From assembly GCA_019637115.1 (NCBI GenBank), contig JAHBWH010000040.1, positions 1 to 52,011 on the forward strand: DNA of 52,011 nucleotides. The letters are read 5' to 3'. A model generated the notes under the pieces. It searched no databases. It was not told the DNA's origin and was given only the letters and a program-made list of their open reading frames with translations. A program made the position numbers and the translations under genes. Origin of the DNA: Myxococcales bacterium (GTDB lineage: Bacteria; Myxococcota_A; Polyangia; Polyangiales; Houyiibacteriaceae). How positions within the stretch are numbered: position 1 is the stretch's first letter; every line of letters starts with the position of its first letter. Below, piece after piece: positions 119 through 49,942 of this stretch.

Positions 119-2608
119 ATGCGCCACGCCACGATTCGCCCCCTCGCCCTCACCCTCGCGCTCCTCGGCGCCGCCGCGCCCAGCCGCTCCGACGCGCAGG
201 ACGGCGGCGTGGAAGGGGTGAGCCAAGCCGCGATCCTCGGCAGCGACGATCGGCAGCAGTGGTACGAAGCCTCGGCTGCGGTCCAAGAGCTCGTGCAGCG
301 CTCGACGGTGATGCTCGTGCCGGCGAACGCCGTGGGCACCTCGCCGAGCGGCGAGGCCGTGCTCCGCGGTCCGAGCCGCGCCCAGCTCGGCCTCTGCGCC
401 GACCAGCCATATCTCTGCGAAGAGGCCGTCGGCAACTGCAGCGGCACGCTCATCGACGAGCACACCGTCATCACGGCGGGCCACTGCTTGCACGAGGTAA
501 TCCGCTCGGGAGAGCGCCCCTGCAACAGTCTCGCCGTCGTCTTCAACTACCGCATGGAAGGCCCCGACCAGCGCGCGCAGATCCTCACCGAACGCGACGT
601 CTACTATTGCCACGAGGTGCTCGCGGCCTACTTCGACGAGCGAGACTCGCGCACCGTCGGCGACTTCGCGGTCTTCACCATCAAGCGTGACCGCCGCGGC
701 ACCGCCCCCAGCCCGGTCAGCGCCCCGCACACGCCCGCCCCGCTGATGCGCTCGCGGCCACGCGCGGGCACCTCGCTCCACGTCGTCGGCCACCCGCAGG
801 GGCTCCCCGTCAAGATCAGCCCCGGCGCCTTCACGCTCGGCAGCAACGTGAACTTCTACTCCGACGCCGACATCTTCGGCGGCAACTCCGGCGGCGGGAC
901 GTTCTTCGTCGAGGGCGGGCAGCTGGCGCTCGCCGGGGTCATCGCGTTCGCGCCCTTCAACTGCCTCAACGCGCCGCATCGCAAGGGCTATTGCTACGAC
1001 GCCCGCGACGGCTGCTTCCGAGAGGACGTCCTCCCGCACGCCCGCAACCGCGTGAACACGCACTTCTGGGTCGAGCCGATCCTCGAGGCGGTCTGCGACT
1101 CGTCGCACCGCTACCACGTGACGACGCGGCCCTCTCGCCTGTGCGGCACCAGCGGCGCGCACCCGCCGAGCCCTCCGCAGGGCGGCTCGTTCGGCAGCTC
1201 GCGAGGGTGCAGCGCGAGCGGCGGCCCCAGCGCAGACGGAGATCCCGGCGCGCTCGGGGGCTTCATCTTCCTGCTCGGCGCTGCGCTCCTGCTCGGCAGC
1301 CGCCGCGGCCCCTTGCCCGTGCGCTGCGCGTCGATGACGGCCACGGCGGCCATCGCGGGGCTCGTCGCGCTCCTCACGGGCTGCTCGCCCACGGCGGGCA
1401 CGCGCTCCGACGACCCCGATCCCCGCGAGCCGGTGGAGCCGAGCCACGAGCTGCTCACCCGCGACTACGTCGCCTCTGCCCTGCTCGCGCAGTCCGCGCG
1501 CCGACCCGTGGGCCTCGACCTCGACGGGGATGGCGAGATCGACAACGCCCTCGCGGAGCTGGTCACGACCCTCGGCGAGCTCGGCTTCGACCTCCAGGAT
1601 GTGCTCGACGAGACGATCGCCAGCGGCGACTACCTCCTGCTCGGCCGCTTCAGCGCGCGCAGCGAGGCGGGCATGATGCGCCTGCAGCAGGCCCGCGTGG
1701 ACGGCGCGCCCGACTTCACGGGGTACGGCGTCTTCCAGGCGCTGGACGCGCCCGAGCCCTACACCCTGCGCGGCACCGTGAGCCACGCGCTCCGCGCCGC
1801 AGAGGAGCTGGTGCCCTTCGAGGCGGAGGCGAGCGCGCTGCCCCTGCGCTTCCCCTTCGGCGACGGCGCGCTCGACCTCGTCCTCCATCGCGCGCGCTTC
1901 GAGGCGGAGCTCGGCGAGCACGAGGGCCGCGCCGAGCTCGGCGGCTTGCTCACGGACGCCGACGTCACCGCGCTGCTCGAGCCGGTGGCCGCCTCGTTCA
2001 CCGCGCGCGTCGCGGCGACCCCCGGGTGCCCGTCCGCCTGTGACGACCCGCTCGTGCAGATGCTGGTGCTCGCGCTCGACCGCGACCGCGACGGCCGCGT
2101 CACGGCCCGCGAGCTCCGCGACAACCCGCTGCTCGGAGGCGCGCTCGCCCCCGACGTGGACGTCGACGGCGACGGCACCCCCGACCACTTCTCGATCGGC
2201 CTGCGTGTCTTCTGGGTGCGCGCCGACGTCGAGGTCGCCGCCGGGAGCACCAGCCAAGGCCTCTCGCACGGGACGCTCCACAAGGACGCCGCGCTCGCGA
2301 TGTGCCGCCCGAACCAGTGCGCCACCTCGACGACGTGCGGCGCCTGCAACAGCACCGCGACGCCCGGCTGCGGGTGGTGCGAGAGCCTCGGATGCATCGC
2401 CCTCGATCGCGCCTTGGAGTGCCGCCCGGGCGAGTGGCTGACGACCCGCTCCGCGTGCGTCGACTGCGGCGGCCTCGACGCCGAGAGCTGCTCGCGGAAC
2501 GGATTCTGCGGCTGGAGCACGACGTGCAACGCGTGCATCAACGACTCCCGCTGCAGCGCGATCCCCGCCGCTTGCAGCGACCTGCGCCGCGCCCGCGGCT
2601 GCGACTGA
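119..2608 (+). CDS. Trypsin-like serine protease with MYXO-CTERM-like anchor fused to a Cys-rich lipoprotein
   Basis: Residues 1-27 are a Sec signal peptide (cleavage near SRSDAQ). Residues about 110-300 carry the chymotrypsin-fold triad: TAGHC (His), GDFAVF (Asp) and GGNSGGG (Ser). This part is a predicted secreted endopeptidase. At about residues 360-395 comes a MYXO-CTERM-like tail: GCSASGG, a helix and SRRG. The frame does not stop there. It runs into MTATAAIAGLVALLTGC at residue 406 (ATG at 1334), a complete lipoprotein signal with a lipobox Cys. The second half has EF-hand-like Asp loops (DLDGDGEID, DRDRDGRVT, DVDGDGTPD) and a Cys-rich end resembling a PSI domain (CGACN...CGWCES). The halves may be separated by proteolysis or by internal initiation at 1334. 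The ATG at 119 is chosen because it opens the signal peptide. No Shine-Dalgarno site is obvious at either start. Confidence 0.85.
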   Translation: MRHATIRPLALTLALLGAAAPSRSDAQDGGVEGVSQAAILGSDDRQQWYEASAAVQELVQRSTVMLVPANAVGTSPSGEAVLRGPSRAQLGLCADQPYLCEEAVGNCSGTLIDEHTVITAGHCLHEVIRSGERPCNSLAVVFNYRMEGPDQRAQILTERDVYYCHEVLAAYFDERDSRTVGDFAVFTIKRDRRGTAPSPVSAPHTPAPLMRSRPRAGTSLHVVGHPQGLPVKISPGAFTLGSNVNFYSDADIFGGNSGGGTFFVEGGQLALAGVIAFAPFNCLNAPHRKGYCYDARDGCFREDVLPHARNRVNTHFWVEPILEAVCDSSHRYHVTTRPSRLCGTSGAHPPSPPQGGSFGSSRGCSASGGPSADGDPGALGGFIFLLGAALLLGSRRGPLPVRCASMTATAAIAGLVALLTGCSPTAGTRSDDPDPREPVEPSHELLTRDYVASALLAQSARRPVGLDLDGDGEIDNALAELVTTLGELGFDLQDVLDETIASGDYLLLGRFSARSEAGMMRLQQARVDGAPDFTGYGVFQALDAPEPYTLRGTVSHALRAAEELVPFEAEASALPLRFPFGDGALDLVLHRARFEAELGEHEGRAELGGLLTDADVTALLEPVAASFTARVAATPGCPSACDDPLVQMLVLALDRDRDGRVTARELRDNPLLGGALAPDVDVDGDGTPDHFSIGLRVFWVRADVEVAAGSTSQGLSHGTLHKDAALAMCRPNQCATSTTCGACNSTATPGCGWCESLGCIALDRALECRPGEWLTTRSACVDCGGLDAESCSRNGFCGWSTTCNACINDSRCSAIPAACSDLRRARGCD

Positions 2609-2695
2609 GCTTCGGCCGCCCCGCGCCGTCGTCGGCCTTCGCTCGTCACCCGAGCGTCCGCGCCGACAGCGGCGCCGGCTTGGACACGGCAGCGT

Positions 2696-3031
2696 TCAGT
2701 CCGGCAGCTCGCACGCCTCGACGACCGGCAAGGCGCCTTCCTCGAAGCTCTCGTCACACACCTGCGACGCGATGACCGACTCGCAGCGGGCCCAGTCGAC
2801 CTCCGCCGCCCGCTCGCTGGCGCAGCGGCGTCGGAAGAACCCGCGGCAGTCCCCCTCGGATTCGAACGAGATCGAGGAGCTCTCGTCGCCATAGCGGCAT
2901 CCGGCCGAGAAGTCGCACTCGCACATCCGCTGGCAGAGCACGTCGGTCGCGTCCTCGCACAGCGATCCGCTGCTCCCACAAGCCGCCAACGCGCTCGCGG
3001 TGAAGGTCACCCACGTGCTCAACCATCGCAT
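2696..3031 (-). CDS. Small Cys-rich lipoprotein, function unknown
   Basis: A 111-residue protein with a short signal peptide ending in the lipobox LAAC (acylated Cys about residue 18), so it is probably anchored in the envelope. The mature part has about ten cysteines in spaced pairs (CEDATDVLC, CQRMCECDF, CRGF, RRRC), suggesting a disulfide-stabilised fold. I do not recognise a family. It converges with the protease-lipoprotein gene, leaving 87 bp between stops, and diverges from ArgJ. A TAnnnT box sits 6 nt upstream of its ATG and no ribosome site is present. Confidence 0.65.
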   Translation of the reverse strand: MRWLSTWVTFTASALAACGSSGSLCEDATDVLCQRMCECDFSAGCRYGDESSSISFESEGDCRGFFRRRCASERAAEVDWARCESVIASQVCDESFEEGALPVVEACELPD

Positions 3032-3037
3032 GGGCGG

Positions 3038-3043
3038 ACTCTA
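3038..3043 (-). promoter_or_regulatory. Candidate -10 box TAGAGT of the 3031 lipoprotein gene
   Basis: TAGAGT on the minus strand ends 6 nt before the ATG, so the transcript would begin at or beside the start codon. Confidence 0.4.
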
Positions 3044-3221
3044 CCTCTCTCGCCGACGCAGGCCCAAGCCTCGTGCGCTCCCGCGCAGCCCGCGCCGTCC
3101 AGCGCCGCTTCGAGCTCGCGCGTCGCTCGGCGCTGCCATGGTCAGGCCGCGCGAGGTCGCGCGCGTGTCGCGTCTCCGTCGCCGCTTGTCATCGTCGCCG
3201 GCGCTGGCATCCTCGCGCGCC

Positions 3222-12283: not shown

Positions 12284-15250
<2,967 letters not shown>

Positions 15251-15274
<24 letters not shown>

Positions 15275-45442: not shown

Positions 45443-48015
45443 TCACACGAACGGCCGCCTCCGCCGCCGAACGAGCCCAAGCGCGACGAGCGCCGCGAAG
45501 AGCCCGCCGGCGCCGTCCCCCGTGGCGCGACAGCCGCAGCCGCCGCCTCCGGCGTCCCCCATGCCGCCATCGCCCAGGCCCGCGTCCGGCGGGAGGCTCG
45601 GCGTGGCCACGACCCGAACGAGGATCGCCGCCTCGGCGACGCGGCCGCTGGCGTCGCGCACGCGCGCCTTGAAGCGCCGCGGTCCGAGCTCGTCGAAGGT
45701 GATCGCGCGGGGCGTGACCGCGCCGTAGCCCGTGTCCCACGAACCATCGTAGTCGTCATCCCATCGGATCTGCAGCGCGTCCCCGTCCGGGTCGCTCGCG
45801 ACGGGCACGAGCTGCACCTCGGCGCCGCGCACGACCTCCGCCGGTTCGACGCGGAGCGAGAGCGTGGGCGCGCGACCAAGCCGGGTGCCGTCGAGCGCGC
45901 CCGAGGCGTCGAGTCGTCCGTAGCCGTAGTCGTCGTTCGGGACGACGCCCGTCACCGCGTCAGCCTCGGCCGTCTCGCGAAGGCGATCGAGCACGGCCTC
46001 GCCACGCAGCGGGCCACGCTCGACGAGGAGCGCGGCCACACCCGCGACGTGGGGGCCCGCGCCCGACGTGCCACCGAAGACCCAATAGGAGGCCTCGGGC
46101 GCGATGACGAAGCCGGGAGCCGAGGGGTAGAAATCGCCCGCCCCGAGGACGGACCACGGGTTGTCGGGCGCGACGATGCCCAGGCTGCCGAAGCCGTCGA
46201 TGCGGGGACCGCGCGCCGAGTAGGTGCGCACGGTGCCCTCGGCGACGTCGTCGGGGCGGGCGTACCACGGGCCGTCGGCCGCGGCGTACGACGGCACCGA
46301 GCCGACGCCCAAGCAGCGGTCGGCCGTGGCGGGCGCCGCGATCGTGGAGCGATCCGTAGCGACCTCGGCGTCCCACGCCGCGCCGAGCGCGAAGCCCGAG
46401 GCGTTGTCGGAGAGGAAGGCGTCGACGCTCGCGGCGGCGGCGCCGTCGGCGCGGCGCACGCGGAGCGCCCAATCACCCGAGGGGATCTCGGCGTCGAAGC
46501 TGTAGACGACGTGATAGACGTGGTTGAAGCCGCGGCTCGTCGCGCGCTCGACGCGCCAGACGAGCGCGCCGGCCGGCGTGATGCGCGTCGGCTCCTCGAG
46601 CGGGACGTCCGCGACGGTGCCGTCGGGGAGGACGAGCGCGATCGCGACCTCGTCGCTCGTGCGATGCAGCGCCGAGATCTCGAGCTGCATGATGCCCGCC
46701 GGGACGTGGAAGGGGACGTCGCGGACGCCCGAGACCTCGACGTACGCGTGCTTGCGGGAGCCGCCGATGTTCCCGGCCGGGCAGACGTGCGTGACGCCCC
46801 GCTCGAGCGCGCTCGCGTCGATGAGCGCGGAGACCGCGTCCGAGCCGTCGAGCGCGCTGCGGGTCCAGTCGACGTACTCGTGGAGCACGACGTCGGGCTC
46901 GTGGCCGAGCACGTAGAAGAGCGGCTCGGTCTGGTCCTCGCTCACCGAGAAGGTCTGCACCATCTCGGCGAGCGGCGCGATGCCGACGGAGCGCCGGCCG
47001 ACGAGCGGGACGTCGCCGACGAGGATGCCCGCGACCCCGCTGCCGTGCGCGGTGTCGGCGTAGCCGAAGAGGCCCCCCGTATAGTCGCGACGCAGCGAGG
47101 AGAGATCGACGCCGCGGCGGTACTCGTGCTGGTGCGGGAGCCCGTACTCGAGGTTCACCCAGACCGCTCGGAACTTCGAGGTGCCGAGCCGGACGAGGCG
47201 CTCTTCGGGGTCGAGCGCCCCGTCGAGGTCGAGGTCGTCCGCCACGAAGAGAGGCTCGCCGAAGGCAGGGTCGTCGTCGCCGAAGCCAGCGAGCGCGCCG
47301 AAGTCGCGCTCACCGTTGCCGTTGGTGTCGAGGTAGAGCCAGTCGACCGAGGGGTCGAAGGCGGCGCGCCGCAGCGAGCGCGTGTCCCGGCGCTCGAGGT
47401 CGACGTAGGCGATGGGGAGCGTGCGGGCGACCTCGGTCGGATCGATGACGCCGTCCCCGTCGAGGTCGATGCCGTCGACGTCGGGGGTGAAGCGGCCGTC
47501 GCCGTCGACGTCGATCCAGTCGTACCAGCCAGCGTCAGCGTGGAAGAACGCGGGGTGGAAGACGTCCGGCGCCGTGTCGATGTCGGCGATGAGCACGCCT
47601 CGGCCCATGAGCCGCTCGACGTCGCCGACGCCCCGAGCGCCCTCGAGGGCGATGCGTTCGGCGGAGCGCGCGAGCGGAGAGGGCCCCGTGGGTGCGGGGC
47701 GATGAACGCGCGCGACGATCGAGAGCGTCGCGAGCGCGCCGAGGTTCGCTGGGGAGATCCGACCCGAGACGAAGCGCCCGTGCGCGAGTGGCCGCCCGTT
47801 CACGTCTCGCACGCGGAGGCCCCGCTGCGCGAGCGCCGCGAGGGCGGAGGCGTCGACGGGTCCGTGAAGCTCGATCACGACCGGTTCGTCGAGCGAACGC
47901 AGCGAGGGGACGCCGTGGAGCCACGCCGGCGCGGGGGCGCGGCCTGCGCACGAACGAGGCTGGCGGAGCTCGCGATCAAGAGGAGAGAGAGCGCCAAGCG
48001 GTGCCAAGAGTCCAT
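45443..48015 (-). CDS. Subtilisin-like protease with MYXO-CTERM anchor, one apparent frameshift
   Basis: A secreted S8-family endopeptidase. The triad is Asp in IADIDTAPD, His in TAHGSGVAGI and Ser in GGTSGAGPHVAGVAALL. Asp-rich calcium-like loops (DVDGDGRFTPDVDG, DLDGDGVIDPTE) are inserted between Asp and His. A C-terminal domain precedes GGGCGCRATGD, a helix and RRRRRPFV (MYXO-CTERM). The signal peptide MDSWHRLALSLLLIASSASLVRA starts at ATG 48015 but is in another frame from the protease. One extra base in the run of five G at 47933-47937 (C on the coding strand) would join them into AAPPAPAWLHGV. The uninterrupted frame to 48238 has no usable signal. A sequencing error, a recent mutation or a slippery site are all possible. 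Confidence 0.85.
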
Positions 48016-48116: not shown

Positions 48117-49942
48117 CTATCGGTGTCGGGGCCTCTCCCGGCGCTTCGAACGCGCGCGCGCACCGAGAAGCGCGACGAACGCGGAGAGCGCCCACGGGGC
48201 CGGCGCGGCTCCACCCTCGGAGACTGCGCAGAGGCCACCGCCGCTCGAGCGGCCGAAGTCCGGCGGGGGCGGCAGGGCAGCCGGCGCCGGAGTCACGTCG
48301 CCCTCGTCCCCAGCGGGCCCCTGCGCCACCGGCGACGCCAGGCTCGTGACCGCGGGAGGCGGCGGGTCGAGCTTCACCTCGAGCTTCTCCTCGAGGGGCG
48401 GCGGAGGCGCGGGCGGCCAGCCCGCAGGGGCGCGCGAGCCGGGCGTGATGCCGAGCGAGGGGATGGGATCGGCGAGGACCTCGCCCGGCCAGAGATCGCG
48501 GCGCGCCTCCCACATCGACTCCGCCGTCGCGAAGCGCCGAGCGACGTTGCGTTGTTGCGCCTCGCTCGCGCAGCCGGGGTGCTCGACCACGTACTGCACG
48601 TGGAAGCCGCTCTCGCCCGAGGCCGCGTGGGTGTTGAGCGGCGCGTGTCGCCAGCGTCGCGTCATCCGGAGCGGCGTCGCGGCGCGCTGGAGCACGAGGT
48701 CGTCGCGGAGGTCGGTGCCATAACGATGGCGGATGCGGCTGACCGTCCACCGCCGACGGTCGGAGGCGTCGGTGCGCCCAGTGCTCGACGCGACCATCGC
48801 TCCGAAGGGCCTGACGTCGGCGGGTCGCACGTGGCGCCCGACCAGGTGCGCGTACTCGGCGACCGCGGCGCCGGGCGTCCGACGAAAGAGCTCGTCCGTG
48901 ATCGCGTTGTAGAGCTCCGCGAACGAGCCCCGCGCGTCGCGGCGCATGCGCAGATCCGTCGGCGCCTCGACGTTGGGCCGGTTGGCGACGACGAAACGCC
49001 CCTCGGGACCACCGCGCCCTCCTCGATCGGCAGATCGCGTGTGCCGTCGGCGTGCACGAGCGCGGTGACGTCGAGGGTGGCCGCGCTCCGCTGACGCGCC
49101 TCGATCGCGCGGGCCTGATCGGGGTCGAGCGCGCCGAGCGGGCCGTGCCCGCCGGCGAAGCGGTGCGAGGCCGCGAGGTGCTCCGTCGGGACCCCGCTCG
49201 CGCTCCGGAGAGGCTCGGGGGGCATGTGGCAGCCGCGGCAGTCGACGGCGGCGACGTCGTCGAGGCGCTGCGCGTGCTGATCGCCCCACGCGGAGCCGCG
49301 CCACGCGCCGGCCTCATCCAGCCCGAAGAGGTGCGTCGTCCCACCAGTGTGGGTGCCGAGGAAGCCGCGATGACAGCTCGCGCAGAGCCCCGGCGTGCGC
49401 AGCGGCGCAGGGCTGAGGCGCGCGCGGTGCGCGGCGACCTCCGCGGGGACGTTCGGGTCGGGGATGGGGACGGACGCCGTCGAGAGCGTGTAGCTCGCGT
49501 TCCCGTCGGCGCGCGTCTCGACGATCCCGTGACAGACGAGGCAGGTCACGCCCGCGAGCGTGAGCGGGTCGTCCGGCTCGATCGGCGCGTCCATCGCGCC
49601 AGCGACGAGCATCACGGGGTCGTGGCACCCCGCACAATGCCGGCTGGCTTCGACGCCCACCTCGGCGCGGACCCGGTCGACGACCGCACGATACCAGGGG
49701 TTGTCGAACGACGAGCGCGCGTGCGCGCTGGCCGCGTGTTGGGCGGCAGCGTCACGGTGACACTCCGCGCACCGCGCGACGTCGGTGAGGAGCGCGACGT
49801 CCGCGTCCCGCTCGGCGAGCCGGGCCTGGGAGGGGGAGAGATCGACGGCCGCAGAGTCGGCCGGACTCGACCCCGTCGAGCAAGCCAACCACCACACGAA
49901 CCCGATCGCACACCAGCTCCGCACGCGCCTCCCTCCGGCCAT
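48117..49942 (-). CDS. Pentahaem c-type cytochrome with MYXO-CTERM-like tail, one apparent frameshift
   Basis: The first frame (from ATG 49942) has a lipoprotein-type signal (GFVWWLACSTG) and five haem sites: CAECH, CAGCH, CLVCH, CASCH and CRGCH. It then turns low-complexity after LPIEEGAVV. The other frame continues sensibly as EGRFVVANRPNVEAPTDLRMRRDARGSFAELYNAITDELF and ends GGGLCAVSEGG, a hydrophobic segment and RSKRRERPRHR, a MYXO-CTERM-like anchor. One extra base in the GGG at 49005-49007 would join both. The protein is likely periplasmic or outer-surface and acts in electron transfer. It lies directly upstream of the subtilase gene on the same strand (101-bp gap). Confidence 0.8.

Follow-up and report, generated by a model that had tools for sequence, protein, structure and literature searches.

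An internal MYXO-CTERM-like tail joined in frame to a lipoprotein signal: a candidate polyprotein hairpin in Myxococcota

The window analysed here is a stretch of 52,011 nucleotides which forms the start of contig C335 in a draft Myxococcales genome (G000; 8.88 Mb, 434 contigs). Its first open reading frame raises a simple question. It encodes a protease with an export signal and an anchor-like tail, and then runs on without a stop codon into a complete lipoprotein: is this one protein or two? A first-pass annotation, made from the sequence without database searches, called the arrangement polyprotein-like, and suggested that a myxosortase-type cut could release the protease and leave a second exported lipoprotein. 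We compared the gene with its homologues, with unrelated genes carrying the same junction, and with the processing systems described for such signals.

A protease and a lipoprotein in one frame

The features of the gene are listed in Table 1. A single open frame on the plus strand, with an ATG start and no internal stop, carries the signal peptide, the protease, the MYXO-CTERM-like tail and the lipoprotein, and to this extent the first-pass annotation is confirmed.

Table 1. Features of the open reading frame at 119-2608, in window coordinates.
Feature	Position	Strand	Basis
Two-part precursor ORF (829 aa)	119..2608	+	ORF reading and homologues
N-terminal signal peptide, SPase I-like, MRHATIRPLALTLALLGAAAPSRSDA	119..196	+	by eye
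Trypsin_2 serine protease domain, residues 107-265	437..913	+	PF13365, E 1.7e-9
MYXO-CTERM-type Cys364 (GCSASGG)	1208..1210	+	Cys at equivalent place in 6/6 members
First transmembrane helix of hairpin	1256..1300	+	hydropathy 2.47; helix 378-393 in low-confidence model
Arg-rich predicted cytoplasmic loop RRGPLPVRCAS, without stop codon	1301..1333	+	R395, R396 invariant
Second transmembrane helix and lipobox LLTG-Cys422, from ATG 1334	1334..1384	+	C422 invariant; model helix 407-419
Second lipoprotein, mature part: DxDxDG (EF-hand-like), beta-rich domain	1385..2317	+	free-standing relatives L125, L150
Cys-rich C-terminal repeat, weakly PSI/plexin-like	2318..2605	+	other proteins of the genome carry the repeat too

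The protease domain matches its Pfam family above the gathering score, and His122 (in TAGHC), Asp182 (DFAVF) and Ser257 (GNSGG), which we take to be the catalytic triad, are invariant in an alignment of six family members. Comparison with solved structures by sequence gave a weak match to factor Xa. After the protease come, in frame, Cys364, a hydrophobic helix, Arg395-Arg396, the nine-residue loop GPLPVRCAS, a second helix and Cys422. The remaining 407 residues contain DxDxDG motifs and the Cys-rich end. No Pfam family scored above its cut-off for the mature part of the second lipoprotein, and no structure in the PDB matched the fold of the second half at an E-value of 0.001 or less. By sequence, its matches to solved structures were, among those listed, only calcium-binding EF-hand proteins, mostly calmodulin. 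AlphaFold2 modelled the whole chain poorly, with a mean pLDDT of 52.

The first of the two internal signals has the composition of a MYXO-CTERM tag, namely a cysteine (Cys364), a transmembrane helix and an arginine cluster (Arg395-396), as it does in all six members of the family. It differs from one in position, since 433 residues follow the arginine pair and the tag is not at the extreme C-terminus. Scored alone, the tail reaches 13.5 bits with TIGR03901, below the cut-off of 20, and a profile search of the whole 829-residue protein with TIGR03901 and TIGR03382 gave no MYXO-CTERM match; the tail is thus described here as MYXO-CTERM-like only. A curated cut-off is passed by four of the five homologous tails (and so by 4/6 in the family): L041 (21.1 bits) and L042 (25.2) with TIGR03901, and L044 (19.4) and L045 (22.0) with TIGR03382, whose cut-off is 15.85. 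The fifth, L043, falls below at 12.8 bits. The second signal has the basic stretch (RRGPLPVR), hydrophobic helix and LLTG-C422 lipobox expected of a lipoprotein signal, with the cysteine present in 6/6 members, and lies inside the chain rather than at the N-terminus of the primary product. Lipoboxes were called throughout by motif and hydropathy rather than by a signal-peptide predictor. Elsewhere in the window, ordinary terminal MYXO-CTERM tags are found at 15179-15265 (+), 45455-45547 (-) and 48147-48242 (-), scoring 25.4, 31.6 and 20.3 bits respectively.

Homologues were sought in 57 related genomes using each half as query. Five other loci have both halves in one frame, three on other contigs of this genome (C233, C376, C91), one in G001 and one in G006, with identities to the window protein of 59, 45, 41, 33 and 34%. 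We refer to these six proteins as family P. Every full-length member is fused and has the Cys-helix-Arg-helix-Cys hairpin. R395, R396 and C422 are invariant columns of the MAFFT alignment; the first cysteine is present in all six, though not in a single column. The loop between the helices can have only a few residues or as many as about 40, and both cysteines and the arginine pair are kept nonetheless. At the N-terminus, L042 and L045 have a lipobox in place of the SPase I-like signal, and L044 (C376) has a Cys-rich, EGF-like insertion (by eye) ahead of the conserved Asp. When the second half was used as query against 183 genomes of the order, no other full-length member turned up; 11 of the genomes gave matches, most in the Cys-rich end only.

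Whether the homologues are fused or are adjacent separate genes is therefore clear for this family, and none of the members has a stop codon between the parts. The first-pass annotation had also argued that a single indel could not have created the fusion, both parts sharing one frame. This is wrong. ATG 1334 is part of an ATGA (1334-1337) whose TGA, read in the next frame, would terminate an upstream gene, and a single indel could thus in principle fuse an overlapping pair; loss of one stop codon is another possible route. It is thus the fusion of all six full-length members, and not the indel argument, which settles the reality of the reading frame.

Both halves also occur as separate proteins. 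Among 26 protease loci, 20 encode lone proteases which end in Cys-helix-Arg and a stop codon (L003, L005, L007-L019, L047-L050, L052). The other six are two fused members (L002, L004), two loci cut by their ends (L020, L046) and two homologues with other tails (L006, L051). The L003 tail exceeds both MYXO-CTERM cut-offs, and the remaining lone-protease tails were assessed by eye. L125 (in G145) and L150, which are related to the second half, are free-standing with their own N-terminal lipobox. The internal signals thus have counterparts at true protein ends in the same families. Since the halves are found both alone with terminal signals and joined, the single chain encodes separable proteins, as a polyprotein does.

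The hairpin in unrelated protein pairs

All 69 matches to TIGR03901 in the genome were listed and the sequence downstream of each was read. Sixty-one of them lie within 21 residues of a stop codon, and three of the other eight run into a lipobox hairpin. Chance readthrough was rejected on these figures. One of the three belongs to family P (C91), and the other two define unrelated families, A (C167) and B (C50). The polyprotein-like description thus gains from an arrangement which is kept in all of family P and recurs in two unrelated families; the cleavage which it implies is predicted from sequence.

Four of the non-terminal matches are not convincing (C22, C98, C124:37001 and C334:78948). 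At the C22 locus (L121, ORF 1288-2508) the MYXO-CTERM tag of an esterase-like protein is in frame with an Ig-like stretch, both identified by eye, without a second signal; this junction is possibly degraded or misassembled.

Family A consists of an Amidase_3 protein followed by a weakly TolB-like lipoprotein. Of 37 genomes, 8 contain the fusion, and the hairpin is present in each of the eight fused ORFs, although the first cysteine motif of L158 is atypical. The loop of L152 (G001:C594) is enlarged by a tandem ENGPRC repeat, which suggests that the loop between the helices is tolerant of length.

Family B has no Pfam family, occupies one frame of about 1400 residues, and is spread over the phylum. 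Matches were found in 57 of 187 genomes, of which 48 were read; together with nearer genomes these gave 58 distinct fused ORFs. The hairpin is present in 58/58, in 57 by rule and in L222 by eye. The fused rows were chosen as one-frame ORFs, which means that the absence of a stop codon is by construction, and the informative counts are those of fused against split genes. The residue before the second cysteine is Gly in 44, Ala in 11 and Ser in 2 (n=57), and the net charge of the loop ranges from +2 to +13. In L229 and L239 the turn is a tight RRRR with no spacer. An Asp follows the second cysteine in 20 of the 57 hairpins. In E. coli, an Asp after the lipoprotein cysteine results in retention in the inner membrane.

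Split versions of family B are few. Second halves alone (p2-only) occur in G044, G010, G005 and G013, and first halves alone (p1-only) ending at the MYXO-CTERM tag occur in G044 and G010; G043 and G006 have them as second copies, and two more p1-only rows, L183 and L187, are cut by contig ends. In G044 the stop codon of one split gene and the start codon of the other share one base. A tree built from 62 second halves places fused rows on either side of the root and has the four split rows nested, requiring three changes, a number as low as in 29 of 500 shuffled controls; the root is a midpoint root only, a number of branches are weak, and the control by shuffling is not a strong one. On the position of the fused rows and the three changes, fusion looks to be the older state of family B genes and splitting secondary.

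The hairpin is under purifying selection in the fused frame of family B. Its pN/pS ratio is 0.17-0.38 in five close pairs of equal length, three of which come from among three near relatives; a sixth pair differed in length. GC content by codon position is 0.77/0.79/0.72 in the loop against 0.68/0.44/0.84 in the body. Both helices have the coding-type pattern and the loop is flat, even when Arg and Lys codons are removed. The flatness is partly due to the loop being Arg-rich; it fits a poorly constrained Arg-rich turn, and is not positive evidence that the linker is translated.

Predicted processing and the alternatives

The reading which we favour, with a probability of roughly 0.6, is that the precursor enters the membrane as a hairpin and is cleaved next to each cysteine, so that two lipid-anchored proteins result. 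We infer the topology, the lipidation, both cleavages and the stoichiometry of the products as follows. The N-terminal signal would carry the protease through the inner membrane. With the protease outside, helix 1 would run from outside to inside, the Arg-rich turn would be cytoplasmic, and helix 2 would run from inside to outside, leaving the second protein outside as well. Both cysteines, the MYXO-CTERM-type one before helix 1 and the lipobox one after helix 2, would then face outward, and both would be lipidated. A myxosortase (MrtC here) would cut directly behind the first cysteine, and LspA directly ahead of the second, following modification by Lgt. The hairpin would be discarded, and each translation product would yield one C-terminally and one N-terminally anchored protein, in equal amounts. 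The mechanism proposed in the first-pass annotation had only the myxosortase step, and left out this second cut at the lipobox.

Myxosortase and LspA both act on this outer side, and the cut by LspA follows Lgt modification. The genome encodes both candidate enzymes: L196 scores 246.9 bits with NF040594 (myxosortase MrtC; cut-off 195) and L201 scores 80.1 bits with TIGR00077 (LspA; cut-off 73.95). The myxosortase scan covered five of the ten CPBP matches in the genome. Three CPBP proteins, L191, L194 and L198, contain low-complexity tandem repeats (ATRDER, SGSES and HSDSDS types), and repeat insertions are seen in several membrane proteins of this genome.

Cutting of the linker by the protease itself was rejected as a general mechanism. 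Families A and B share the hairpin and have no recognised protease, so the protease would not be needed for its excision. Two protease homologues, and the family B rows whose start was read, have a lipobox at the beginning of the first protein as well, which would then be lipid-anchored at both ends.

A broader version of the double-cleavage reading is that such genes encode true polyproteins throughout the Myxococcota, with a disposable, doubly lipidated hairpin whose ends are cut by two intramembrane proteases, one glutamic (myxosortase) and the other aspartic (LspA). We advance this tentatively, at slightly under even odds.

The main alternative, which we consider unlikely, is an uncut protein spanning the membrane twice, in which the hairpin stays and tethers two extracytoplasmic domains, its cysteines perhaps lipidated. 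A hairpin alone would account for the conserved helices and Arg loop, and the spacer-free RRRR turns of L229 and L239 fit a stable helical hairpin. It would leave unexplained why the sequence at each cysteine matches a cleavage signal, with Gly, Ala or Ser before the lipobox cysteine in 57/57 family B hairpins and four of six family P tails above cut-off, and why the same signals stand at the real termini of the separate forms.

More doubtful still is the use of one site only, so that either the protease keeps the hairpin (a cut by LspA) or the second protein does (a cut by myxosortase). Uncut helices are evidently tolerated to some degree, as some MYXO-CTERM protein reaches the surface in the absence of myxosortase, according to Guo 2025 (PMC11980579). 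Against a single cut, the two cysteines are equally conserved in families P, A and B.

That the gene is really two genes in one frame, with an internal start at ATG 1334, readthrough, or a leftover fusion of no consequence, is highly improbable. The first-pass annotation had offered internal initiation at this ATG as its alternative, and it does lie 16 residues before Cys422, so that for the window gene it is possible. The ATG is not conserved in family P, and L043 and L045 have no usable ATG, GTG or TTG. More widely, none of these three codons, the only starts counted, occurs in the stretch that runs from the Arg pair to 10 residues ahead of the second cysteine in 25/57 hairpins of family B, 2/6 of family P and 4/6 of family A; L229 is another hairpin without an internal start. 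With 31 of 69 scored hairpins thus lacking an ATG, GTG or TTG start, internal initiation is not the general answer. In addition, a signal starting at ATG 1334 would have no Arg or Lys, and no Shine-Dalgarno-like sequence is seen by eye in the 18 bases upstream. Adjacent pairs do occur: of 56 usable terminal MYXO-CTERM genes in the genome, six have a lipoprotein-like signal within 80 codons downstream, one in the same frame and five in other frames, and such pairs could be a source of fusions.

An assembly or sequencing error which removed a stop codon has a negligible chance, since, draft genome of 434 contigs though this is, four of its contigs carry a fused copy each, other genomes hold a further two, and for the other families this architecture is found in the single-contig genomes G043, G188, G254 and G308, which refutes this explanation for the class.

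Relation to known sorting systems

Double cleavage at the hairpin would combine two familiar routes. The MYXO-CTERM/myxosortase system (TIGR03901, MrtX, MrtC) has the same order of Cys, helix and Arg cluster, and MrtC is encoded in the genome; the difference is that the tag here is internal and the chain continues into a second signal. Lipoprotein maturation by Lgt and LspA likewise uses a basic stretch, hydrophobic helix and lipobox cysteine, and LspA is encoded, but here the lipobox is internal, behind an exported protein and a first helix. A bacterial polyprotein split at an internal signal sequence is known in fbcH of Bradyrhizobium, where the cytochrome b/c1 polyprotein is separated by signal peptidase. 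That case involves signal peptidase I and one cut, in contrast to two lipidation signals back to back. In Haloferax, Abdul Halim in 2017 reportedly found ArtA-dependent processing of a tripartite signal which is not at the C-terminus. The likeness is a sorting tag working inside a protein, and the difference is that the system is archaeal; we know of no second lipoprotein signal there. Searching the open-access literature for an internal lipobox or a bacterial polyprotein brought up no paper on either.

The closest precedent is MXAN_5598 of Myxococcus xanthus, which has an internal MYXO-CTERM motif and is read by Guo, Haft and Wall (2025; PMC11980579), who term internal motifs 'rare', as a possible gene fusion with an N-terminal part that continues to be processed and anchored at the surface. 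The same text reports that myxosortase cleavage of MYXO-CTERM is Cys-dependent in TraA and that MrtX is functional in E. coli, and type II secretion to the surface is proposed there for MYXO-CTERM proteins (Guo 2025; PMC11980579). MXAN_5598 resembles the window gene in having the tag mid-ORF. It differs in that its C-terminal part is described as an outer-membrane beta-barrel with OmpA domains, with no mention of a lipobox hairpin, whereas in the window gene the lipobox directly follows the tag, in an arrangement shared by three unrelated families, one of them phylum-wide. Internal MYXO-CTERM motifs are thus already on record, and the back-to-back lipobox and phylum-wide conservation appear to be new. 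The term 'rare fusion' does not cover a conserved second signal with this spread. That one type of hairpin joins protein pairs with no relation to each other in many Myxococcota points to a polyprotein of natural bacterial origin.

If these chains are cut at both cysteines, they would be natural bacterial polyproteins made with two back-to-back sorting signals, in several unrelated pairs across a phylum. LspA would then accept a lipobox which lies inside the chain and follows an exported domain, and annotation with one product per ORF would miscount the secreted proteins of Myxococcota with such fusions. Which enzyme lipidates the MYXO-CTERM cysteine is stated to be an open question, with Lgt the leading candidate, in Guo 2025 (PMC11980579). 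The fused genes would offer a built-in test of this, because the same chain has an Lgt-type lipobox shortly downstream.

One further locus in the genome, L109 (C57:52200-56300, ORF 689-3217), has an internal MYXO-CTERM tag, after which come repeats of Gly-Ser and His-Val-Asp-Val type, next an SPase I-like signal and finally a DUF3570 barrel (PF12094, E 1.5e-31), and is closer to the plan of MXAN_5598.
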